A stretch of 39,453 bases of DNA from Prochlorococcus sp. AH-716-J09 (lineage in GTDB: Bacteria > Cyanobacteriota > Cyanobacteriia > PCC-6307 > Cyanobiaceae). Each line of letters opens with the position of its first letter. Position 1 is the stretch's first letter. The stretch covers positions 1 to 39,453 of the forward strand of contig JAOOLS010000005.1 of the NCBI GenBank assembly GCA_028408915.1, read 5' to 3'. Shown here in pieces: positions 14,864-26,304 of the stretch. The notes below the pieces were generated by a model. That model ran no database searches and was not told where the DNA came from. It saw only the letters and a list, made by a program, of their open reading frames with translations. A program made the position numbers and the translations under genes.

Positions 14864-15175
14864 ATGCAAAGGTATTTGATTTCCTACGAATTTACAGATG
14901 GCGAGGAGCAAGAAGAAGGTGCAGAAATGCTAATTAATTGGTACGAATCAGGTGGACCCCAAAACAGACCTGAAAACTATGAGGTTCATTCTTGGATTTT
15001 TATGGTTCAAAATGGGATTGGACATTCTGTCGTGAGTGCAGATTCTCTTGAGACAATTTGGAAGCAATGGCACCCCTGGAGAAGGTTAATGGATATAAAT
15101 ATACAGCCGTGTATGGATCTTGATGAGACAGTCGGTTTATTCAAAAAACAAAAAATGAATACACGGATAGTCTAA
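14864..15175 (+). CDS. DUF3303-like small protein
   Basis: 103 residues. It begins with the strand-helix pattern RYLISYEFTDGEEQEEGAEMLINWYESGGP and ends with a DINIQPCMDLDETVGLF segment. Both fit the DUF3303 ferredoxin-like fold seen in cyanobacteria and other bacteria. The middle GIGHSVVSADSLETIWKQW matches the central helix region. Function unknown. ATG chosen; the frame is closed just upstream. Confidence 0.6.
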   Translation: MQRYLISYEFTDGEEQEEGAEMLINWYESGGPQNRPENYEVHSWIFMVQNGIGHSVVSADSLETIWKQWHPWRRLMDINIQPCMDLDETVGLFKKQKMNTRIV

Positions 15176-15270: not shown

Positions 15271-15465
15271 ATGATGAATGATTCTTATCACATTTACTTT
15301 AAAGGAGAAATTCTTTTCAAGAATTTGAGTAAAGATGAATTTGAATTTGTTTGGGGGAAACTTTATACATCCTACATAAATGCCCTAAATAAAGAGCTAA
15401 CCTACGAATTAATTAGCGAAAACAATATTATGGAGCCGGCCTTTAACCTTGAGCCATCTTACTAA
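15271..15465 (+). CDS. 64-residue unknown protein
   Basis: Soluble, acidic small protein beginning MMNDSYHIYFKGEILFKNLS, with an amphipathic helix rich in Tyr and Trp (FEFVWGKLYTSYINAL). ATG-ATG start; the second ATG could also be used. The alternating strand and helix pattern suggests a small alpha/beta fold. No family recognised. Confidence 0.6.
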   Translation: MMNDSYHIYFKGEILFKNLSKDEFEFVWGKLYTSYINALNKELTYELISENNIMEPAFNLEPSY

Positions 15466-15986: not shown

Positions 15987-16347
15987 TTTAGTTATTAACT
16001 TAATCAAATTTATAGGATTGATTTTAGTTTCGAGAAATATTTGCATAGAGAAAACCGAATTAAACAATTTTTAATCAGCTATGACAAAAATTAAAAATTT
16101 CAAGTTTAGATTGATTTTTCTTCACTTTAATTTTCAATTTGATACATGATGAAGAAAAAACTTTTTTAATTTTTTATCAACATAAGCTTCTGGTATAGAT
16201 ATTTTTTCTTTTTTAAAAAGTAATGATCCCACAGTTATAACAGGAGATTATGATAATTTTTAAACTATATTTTATTTTTTTTGATGAAGTATTAATACTT
16301 AAAAAATTTTCCAGAAAAGCTTGTTTTTGTAATGCTCCCGGAGAGTT

Positions 16348-16457
16348 ATCCACTTTTTAAGCGTTTTTCAACAGGGTTTTCCACAATATGTTGATTAAAT
16401 TTGGATTTCTATGTGCAAAATAAAATATTATCTTCTTTTAAGAAAAAACTATCCACA
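16348..16457. promoter_or_regulatory. cluster of five DnaA-box-like sites
   Basis: Within 110 bp: TTATCCACT (16348-16356), TTTTCAACA (16367-16375), TTTTCCACA (16379-16387), TTTTGCACA on the minus strand (16414-16422) and CTATCCACA (16449-16457). TTTTCCACA matches the cyanobacterial DnaA box form and the others differ from TTATCCACA or TTTTCCACA by one or two bases. The gap 16068-16518 contains no convincing gene. AT-rich DNA lies on the left side (about 16250-16315), and gene direction switches from mostly minus to mostly plus across it. It could be a replication origin, a DnaA-titrating locus or a DnaA-controlled promoter. Confidence 0.6.
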
Positions 16458-16518
16458 TTTTTATTTTGGGATCACTAGGATTTCAAATGTCTTTTGAATA
16501 ATTCTAAGTACAAACCCT

Positions 16519-16644
16519 ATGAATCTAAATGAGACAAAAAAAGATTTAAATCCCGAAATCAAAAAAGAGTTGGAAAAATCTAAGCTTAAAGTTCTTACTA
16601 ATGAAAATGATTTTTTAGTTAAAAACCTCAAAAAGGCTGGATAA
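16519..16644 (+). CDS. 41-residue charged peptide
   Basis: ATG, then a strongly charged Lys/Glu/Asn-rich product (LNETKKDLNPEIKKELEKS) ending NDFLVKNLKKAG. Likely helical and soluble. It lies just right of the DnaA-box cluster. The following 286 bp to the next gene are AT-rich and I see nothing in them. Confidence 0.5.
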   Translation: MNLNETKKDLNPEIKKELEKSKLKVLTNENDFLVKNLKKAG

Positions 16645-20368: not shown

Positions 20369-20448
20369 TATTATTAACCAGAAAAATGTAAAAAATAATA
20401 CCTAATACAAAAAAAATAACTTATAAGATTTTTAAAATGCTATTAAAT

Positions 20449-20622
20449 ATGAAGCCAGAACCGAAGAAAAAACTGCCTAATAAAAAAGTTATAAGTTCAG
20501 CAAAATTTGAGGCTAAAGAACAATTCACAAAATCTGCATTAGAAAATTTAAAAACAGAAAATGAAAGACTTGTTAATTCACTAAAAAAATCTGGGGAAAT
20601 TAAAGATTCAAAAAAAAAATAA
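20449..20622 (+). CDS. 57-residue highly basic charged protein
   Basis: I start at ATG 20449; another ATG four codons earlier (20437) is equally open. The product is nearly all Lys, Glu, Asn and Ser (EPKKKLPNKK, KFEAKEQFTKSALENLKTENERL), probably a coiled helix, with a Lys-rich end. It may bind nucleic acid; this is inference from charge only. Confidence 0.5.
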   Translation: MKPEPKKKLPNKKVISSAKFEAKEQFTKSALENLKTENERLVNSLKKSGEIKDSKKK

Positions 20623-26058: not shown

Positions 26059-26105
26059 AAAAAAAGACCCCTCAAAAACTGTTGTTATAACAGGTTTTCG
26101 AGAGG
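26059..26105 (-). terminator. strong Rho-independent terminator for the purK-side transcript
   Basis: Minus strand: a GC-containing stem built from CCTCTCGAAAACCTGTT and AACAGTTTTTGAGG-type arms (one bulged base on one side), a five-base loop, and then TC followed by seven T. It would end transcription coming from purK and the candidate 6S RNA. Confidence 0.75.
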
Positions 26106-26280
26106 TATACCGGATCCCCGTCAGTTCTCTGCTGCATCGACCTGGAAATGCCAGAAGAGGATTCAAAGTGGGCTTTCGTTTCCGATTACAAGATCGGTTT
26201 ACTACCGCATCACGACAGTCTCCTCATGTCGAAAGAGAGTCAGATCAGAGCACATAAAGAAGAACTTAACCAAAGATCCA
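26095..26280 (-). ncRNA. ssrS: candidate 6S RNA downstream of purK (boundaries approximate)
   Basis: GC-rich non-coding DNA directly after purK, on its strand. It folds into a rod: outer stem from 26246-26253 with 26124-26131 (seven of eight pairs), then an unpaired bubble, then GTCG/CGAC (26228-26231 with 26138-26141) and TCCTC/GAGGA (26221-26225 with 26157-26161). Further in are TCGT/ACGA and the apical CCGAT-ATCGG hairpin. The rod with a central bubble is the 6S RNA plan (it mimics an open promoter and binds RNA polymerase). Cyanobacterial 6S genes are, as I recall, next to purK. A terminator follows. I did not recognise the primary sequence itself. Confidence 0.5.
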
Positions 26281-26304
26281 GTAATCTAACTCTAACTTAT
26301 TTTT

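Follow-up and report, generated by a model that had tools for sequence, protein, structure and literature searches.

Several described systems bear on the DNA analysed here. In Escherichia coli the activity of datA is modulated by transcription running through the locus (PMC10950094), and the intergenic DnaA sites of Bacillus subtilis, mentioned in PMC7198777, are an example of DnaA-regulated promoters outside oriC. The latter source also states that DnaA is non-essential for replication in several cyanobacteria, calls its role there an important question, and reports DnaA ChIP-qPCR in Synechococcus elongatus PCC 7942. The predicted oriC adjoins dnaN in most cyanobacteria, and the 9-mer TTTTCCACA is given as the cyanobacterial DnaA box consensus (PMC4674748). 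Repeats of 3'-GAT-5' beside DnaA boxes, the DnaA-trio, are described as a basal unwinding system (PMC8287927). The small RNA Yfr17 of Prochlorococcus MED4 was located by 5' RACE, with sizes of 76, 285 and 450 in the published table (PMC2518516). The main text of that paper mentions neither 'DnaA' nor 'oriC', and within the literature searched Yfr17 is named only there. The same literature, as judged from listings, holds no description of a cyanobacterial DnaA regulon or of boxes outside oriC like those reported below, and the name DUF2811 is absent from it.

The DNA analysed, called the window throughout, is a stretch of 39,453 nucleotides from Prochlorococcus sp. AH-716-J09 (contig JAOOLS010000005.1). 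It carries a cluster of DnaA-box-like sites within the Yfr17 gene, next to a divergent small open reading frame (ORF). From its sequence and conservation, this locus is probably a DnaA-binding regulatory array outside oriC that would switch the divergent transcription of Yfr17 and the small ORF. The genome designated G152 serves for comparison. It is inferred to be that of MED4, because its Yfr17 match at 664667-664930 falls exactly at the position tabulated in PMC2518516, and inspection of ORF translations gives the same neighbourhood of Yfr17 in G152 as in the window.

Organization of the locus

The preliminary description of this DNA reported five DnaA-box-like sites beginning at position 16348, in a gap without genes. 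All five sites are present, within 112 bp at 16346-16457, the true start being two bases earlier than claimed. The gap itself is occupied: it is filled by Yfr17, and a 41-codon ORF starts just beyond it on the other strand. The features of the window that are considered here are the following.

16346-16354, plus strand: TTATCCACT, DnaA-box-like 9-mer, array box 3, invariant in 22 of 22 Yfr17 loci
16365-16373, plus strand: TTTTCAACA, DnaA-box-like 9-mer, array box 2, invariant in 22 of 22 Yfr17 loci
16377-16385, plus strand: TTTTCCACA, array box 1, an exact match to the cyanobacterial DnaA box, invariant in 22 of 22 Yfr17 loci
16412-16420, minus strand: TTTTGCACA, outer DnaA-box-like 9-mer, inside a well conserved block, yet not invariant
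16449-16457, plus strand: CTATCCACA, outer DnaA-box-like 9-mer, variable, degenerate in L002 (G152), L003, L020 and L021
16230-16496, minus strand: Yfr17 small-RNA gene (Rfam RF02365), cmscan score 107 bits (gathering score 50), model positions 1-264 of 264
16501-16529, minus strand: promoter-like hexamers TTTAGA-17-TAGAAT from a consensus scan, a few bases ahead of the 5' end of Yfr17
16519-16644, plus strand: small ORF of 41 amino acids, type 1, divergent from Yfr17 and conserved beside it, 133 bp from the nearest array box
20437-20622, plus strand: small ORF of type 2, the second of its family (alignment A3), without upstream array, an internal control

The three core boxes, TTATCCACT, TTTTCAACA and TTTTCCACA, lie on one strand with start-to-start distances of 19 and 12 bp. 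All five boxes are inside Yfr17, the core boxes at about +112 to +151 of its RNA, and two weaker sites (16174-16182 and 16307-16315) extend the cluster. Upstream of dnaN the 9-mer TTTTCAACA occurs again, in the genome of the window as well as in G152. As for the hexamers before Yfr17, three such pairs were found in the region and 3.3 are expected in shuffles, so that they are noted for their position only and carry no significance.

The total number of TTWTCCACA-like sites in the window, with at most one mismatch, is ordinary (38 versus 33.0 expected). Their density at the locus is a different matter, and chance as the source of the cluster was rejected by it. When the window was shuffled 500 times with its dinucleotides kept, no shuffle reached five sites within 112 bp (largest 3) or seven within 290 bp (largest 5), and one reached three within 45 bp. 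The G+C content of the gap is 0.237, versus 0.300 for the window.

In G152 single boxes occur at chance level, with 44 matches to TTWTCCACA and 45 to the reversed pattern. When 20 stretches of 20 kb each were scored in this genome, one picked to contain Yfr17 and two at contig ends, the Yfr17 locus was the only place inside them with at least three sites per 112 bp. A three-site group seen at 417 kb of G152 was rejected, being by eye a coding tandem repeat. The region upstream of dnaN likewise has three sites, within about 70 bp, and falls outside this scoring since it spans the G152 contig ends.

Two further observations concern the RNA genes of the window. The sequence TATAACTGTGGGATCATTACTTTT at the 3' end of Yfr17 (16213-16240) is strongly conserved in the genus, and, taken with the GGGAGCAT or GGGATCA that follows the third box, has the look of a repeated GGGATCA element. 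A 6S RNA gene is present at 26103-26287 on the minus strand (94 bits).

Conservation of the core boxes

A search of 300 genomes gave a single copy of Yfr17 in 22 of the 24 listed genomes of the same genus and none in the 276 genomes of other genera, under stricter filters with which weak matches are lost. The 22 loci came from the RNA model and not from the boxes alone. In their alignment all 27 core-box columns are invariant, versus 106 of the 234 other ungapped columns (Fisher p 4e-9, the columns not being independent of one another). Runs of nine columns without any variation coincide with the three boxes and with one further AT-rich block (alignment columns 73-83). At box 1, TTTTCCACA, the invariance ends exactly at the edges of the 9-mer, and the flanking columns are not invariant. 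At every one of the 22 loci the core boxes are separated by spacers of 3 and 10 bp. Conservation of the 9-mers in relatives, named earlier as a check on the cluster, thus holds for the three core boxes and fails for the outer two, which vary.

The exact array, defined as the three 9-mers with spacers of 3 and 10, was found in at least 119 stretches of species genomes. All 80 titles among the matches listed are Prochlorococcus or Synechococcaceae. By a simple test on the 119 matches listed, a type-1 ORF adjoins the array in 85, a type-3 ORF in 6 and neither in 28, some of the last sitting too near the end of the locus for an ORF to be recognized.

A search of 50,697 phage records gave no match to Yfr17 DNA or to the small ORF. 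In IMG/VR one contig carries the exact array, and a looser two-box pattern matches 12, of which this one was inspected. In this contig, L373 (IMGVR_UViG_3300006350_001306), a block of about 573 bp at 233-805 contains Yfr17 in full (91.6 bits) together with the type-1 ORF, and is 93.5% identical to the Prochlorococcus locus L294. It adjoins T4-like cyanophage genes (late sigma factor, SbcD-like and SbcC-like). The other flank holds a MerR-like fragment without phage match, and for that reason an assembly chimera and a phage-borne copy are equally likely.

Small open reading frames beside the array

The type-1 small ORF, whose product of 41 amino acids has no Pfam match, lies some 140-170 bp downstream of the array. 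In other genomes, found by box patterns, the same core array stands beside a related small ORF. The paralogous arrays L072, L075-L078, L080 and L082 were found by a two-box pattern and L074 by a third-box pattern, and box invariance among them is circular because these loci were found by the boxes themselves. A protein-based search was run to lessen this circularity and is only partly independent.

The protein profile of the small ORF (alignment A3) was run on 28 genomes: 16 with Yfr17, two with a type-3 array only, five of the genus without Yfr17 and five of other genera. It matched 19 genomes, all in the genus (19 of 23), and none of the five from other genera. Upstream regions were examined for 30 of the 37 matches. 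The 19/12 array is present at 11 of 11 type-1 loci, with 3-6 sites per 112 bp, and the three type-3 loci, all with 4 sites, fall in the same range. By comparison, none of 16 type-2 loci has more than one site per 112 bp. The type-2 ORF of the window has no site in the 200 bp before its start, and a type-2 paralogue lies about 4 kb from the array in the window and in several other genomes. It is the type-2 contrast that forms the independent part of this test, since most of the genomes had been chosen for Yfr17 or a known array.

In genome G276 the type-1 ORF contains a stop while the array and Yfr17 persist, which means that the ORF cannot be the sole reason for the conservation. At the type-3 loci L074, L075, L077 and L078, compared by eye, the upstream side of the array is common and the sequence past the third box differs, as if the array marked a rearrangement border.

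DnaA boxes at DUF2811 genes

Homologues outside the genus were sought with the R1 model; at E 0.01 it gave matches for 46 of the 300 genomes. This candidate extension was rejected: the best match outside the genus (E 5.7e-5) is in coding sequence, as are five of the eight loci inspected (L107-L114). The remaining three weak matches lie upstream of DUF2811 genes, and a test of these genes was made on that account. We take the genus of G152 to be the high-light group and its class to be Cyanobacteriia. A protein profile places DUF2811 in 66 of 71 genomes of the family and in 22 of 59 genomes from the phylum, 21 of these in other families of the same class.

Exact TTWTCCACA boxes are greatly enriched before these genes. 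Within 500 bp before the DUF2811 domain they occur at 22 of 29 loci (0.15 expected), these being the 30 best-scoring family matches with one dropped as short. Of 12 further hand-picked loci, taken from the genome of the window, from additional members of the genus and from three other genera, 10 have a box (0.16 expected). The third set, 22 loci from other families of the class with the own locus left out, gave 18 (0.34 expected). The expected counts are means of 200 shuffles each. As a control, the 500 bp downstream of DUF2811 contain an exact box at none of the 29 loci.

The boxes are also ordered. In the 51 loci of the first and third sets, 60 exact boxes point towards the gene and 8 away, and of 53 pairs of same-strand neighbours (at most one mismatch, less than 50 bp apart) 43 lie 11, 21 or 22 bp from each other. 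At 12 loci compared by eye, different genes are found beyond the boxes, so the boxes appear to go with DUF2811. Boxes of the form TTTTCCACA, often in tandem, were seen upstream of DUF2811 in many cyanobacterial families (L189-L200, L159-L188, L231-L253). The distances and spacings of these arrays resemble those of the Yfr17 array and do not equal them, and the Yfr17 array, lying upstream of the small ORF, has the same orientation as most DUF2811 boxes. The similar tandem phasing of TTTTCCACA arrays at DUF2811 suggests one shared mode of DnaA control.

Proposed function of the array

Binding of DnaA to the array is inferred from the identity of TTTTCCACA with the cyanobacterial DnaA box and from the presence of TTTTCAACA at the probable oriC as well. 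DnaA monomers would bind the three core boxes side by side and, as the distances add up to about three helical turns (12 + 19 = 31 bp), would face nearly the same side of the DNA. The bound protein could then switch the transcription of the divergent unit by adjusting the expression of the small ORF and/or slowing the elongation of Yfr17, and the output would follow the level of DnaA over the cell cycle. Transcripts of dnaA in MED4 are reported to peak with S phase (PMC2663038), so a cell-cycle signal for such a switch exists. In all 10 genomes of the genus that were tested, the DnaA protein matches its model from position 1 to 435 (of 437). No DnaA-box cluster lies upstream of dnaA in 11 loci, and thus a simple autoregulatory loop is not seen. 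Other points that count against the proposed role are the conserved blocks outside the boxes, such as the AT-rich one, the 28 array loci beside which neither type of ORF was recognized, and the inexact likeness to the DUF2811 arrays.

The earlier suggestion of a DnaA-titrating or regulatory locus is favoured by the conservation of the core boxes, the binding itself being predicted. Between its two halves, control of the divergent unit by DnaA at the level of transcription is judged the most likely, with datA-like titration as the main rival. In the latter, the array would titrate or inactivate DnaA and limit re-initiation, and transcription of Yfr17 through it would modulate the binding. Such a role agrees with a conserved cluster of fixed spacing far from oriC, placed inside a region reported as transcribed (PMC2518516) and kept with Yfr17 in G276 despite the stop in the ORF; it also recalls the effect of read-through transcription on datA in E. 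coli (PMC10950094). However, only three of the boxes are strong, the ties of the arrays to two types of ORF and to DUF2811 genes look like gene control, and a Yfr17 locus is found in none of the 276 genomes of other genera. We regard titration or inactivation as rather unlikely to be the main role of the array.

Regulation of the divergent unit may, tentatively, be part of a wider arrangement. Cyanobacteria would possess a conserved DnaA circuit outside oriC, with DUF2811 and its helically phased TTTTCCACA boxes as the core. In one group of Prochlorococcus a further array would have been built into the Yfr17/small-ORF locus, Yfr17 being in essence the transcript through this array, and a small RNA and a small protein would in this way be coupled to the replication cycle. 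This is possible and is offered with less than even confidence.

The DUF2811 boxes across many cyanobacterial families and the genus-specific array at Yfr17 are concrete candidate DnaA targets for model strains. For Yfr17 the array offers a testable mode of control.

Structure of the Yfr17 RNA

It is important to consider whether the 9-mers could be conserved as RNA sequence of Yfr17, for target pairing or protein binding, and merely resemble DnaA boxes. Yfr17 is indeed a published RNA (PMC2518516), and a long invariant stretch could be a pairing region. The RNA of G152 folds somewhat better than shuffles (z -1.8). That of the window, however, folds no better than shuffles (z +0.44), and the covariation term of RNAalifold is close to zero (-0.04), 2 of 30 pairs being changed on both sides. 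The Rfam structure was compared over 74 pairs and 22 sequences with a mean column identity of 84%, which limits the power of the comparison. Its positions are paired in 64.6% of cells versus 64.5% in shuffles (173 of 500 reach the value), and slid versions of the structure pair 35-49%, below the true placement. Pairs changed on both sides number 12, slightly above the 9.2 of the shuffles (17 of 500 reach this count), which speaks somewhat for an RNA role.

The published structure of Yfr17 thus appears poorly kept while the DnaA-box 9-mers are invariant. This suggests that part of the Rfam model of Yfr17 reflects the conservation of DNA sites. Also at odds with conservation as RNA, the invariance at box 1 stops at the edges of the 9-mer, and type-3 ORFs also have two box variants beside them, spaced almost alike (3 or 4 bp), in surroundings that, by eye, are unlike Yfr17, these loci having first been found by their boxes. 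Conservation of the 9-mers for the sake of the RNA is considered improbable.

Position of the replication origin

The locus had also been proposed as a candidate replication origin, beside a strand switch and with dnaN absent from the window. The last point was borne out, as dnaN is located on another contig of the same genome (G000:C16); dnaA was not found in this draft genome, which is 59.78% complete. The strand switch is only mostly true, because the ORFs 14864-15175 and 15271-15465 on the left side run rightwards. Within the window the cumulative GC skew dips locally at 16-17 kb and reaches its lowest value at 35-36 kb.

The G152 genome has dnaN at 174 and Yfr17 at 664667. The GC skew, whose whole-genome minimum had been named as a check for an origin, tells little: at fourfold sites it has hardly any signal there (best fit 294.2 versus null 301.4), and for this reason the AT skew was used. 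Corrected for gene strand and fitted on 284 ORFs from the 20 stretches, it changes sign at 0 (dnaN) and at 860-900 kb. This fit leaves a residual of 352.2, compared with 408.1 when a change point is forced at 664.8 kb and 453.7 with none, and in none of 60 bootstraps did a change point fall within 60 kb of Yfr17 (about 664.7 kb).

The dnaN gene was found in 28 of 29 genomes. At least three perfect CTA units, forming the DnaA-trio, lie upstream of it in 25 of the 28, and the other three have one imperfect unit; the DnaA boxes upstream of dnaN across these genomes were judged by eye. The window's own genome has boxes and the CTACTACTACTA trio beside dnaN (G000:C16), and no trio was seen within 100 bp of any of the 22 Yfr17 loci. 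As a separate observation, the oriC of Prochlorococcus is probably upstream of dnaN, with boxes and the CTACTACTACTA trio (L001; L043/L024 in G152; L115-L142). Boxes and a trio upstream of dnaN were seen as well in the six genomes of other genera that were examined, one with an imperfect unit.

Although a box cluster in a gap of low G+C content, a local strand switch and a local skew dip are what an origin might present, composition changes elsewhere, boxes with trios at dnaN and the lack of a trio at the Yfr17 loci make the array very unlikely to be the chromosomal replication origin.

Comparison with known systems

The array can now be compared with the described systems in turn. The three-box core of DARS, the DnaA reactivation sequence, has boxes in opposing orientation; this candidate was rejected, as the three core boxes of the window all have one orientation. 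The cyanobacterial oriC upstream of dnaN has the same 9-mers, TTTTCCACA and TTTTCAACA, as the array. However, oriC has DnaA-trios beside tandem boxes and a change point in composition, and the Yfr17 locus has neither.

With Yfr17 (RF02365) the locus is identical, the model being matched over its full length, while in the loci compared the Rfam structure appears poorly kept and the 9-mers are invariant. With datA, which is also marked by an IHF site and by DnaA-ATP hydrolysis or titration, the array shares a cluster of DnaA boxes away from oriC, but it differs from the E. coli locus in consisting of three closely spaced boxes inside a small-RNA gene, with divergent small ORFs.

The DnaA-regulated promoters of B. 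subtilis resemble the array in their clustered boxes upstream of a gene, conserved together with that gene. The array is distinguished from them by its fixed tandem spacing of 19 and 12 bp and by its candidate targets, an uncharacterised ORF of 41 amino acids and a small RNA, with similar arrays at DUF2811.
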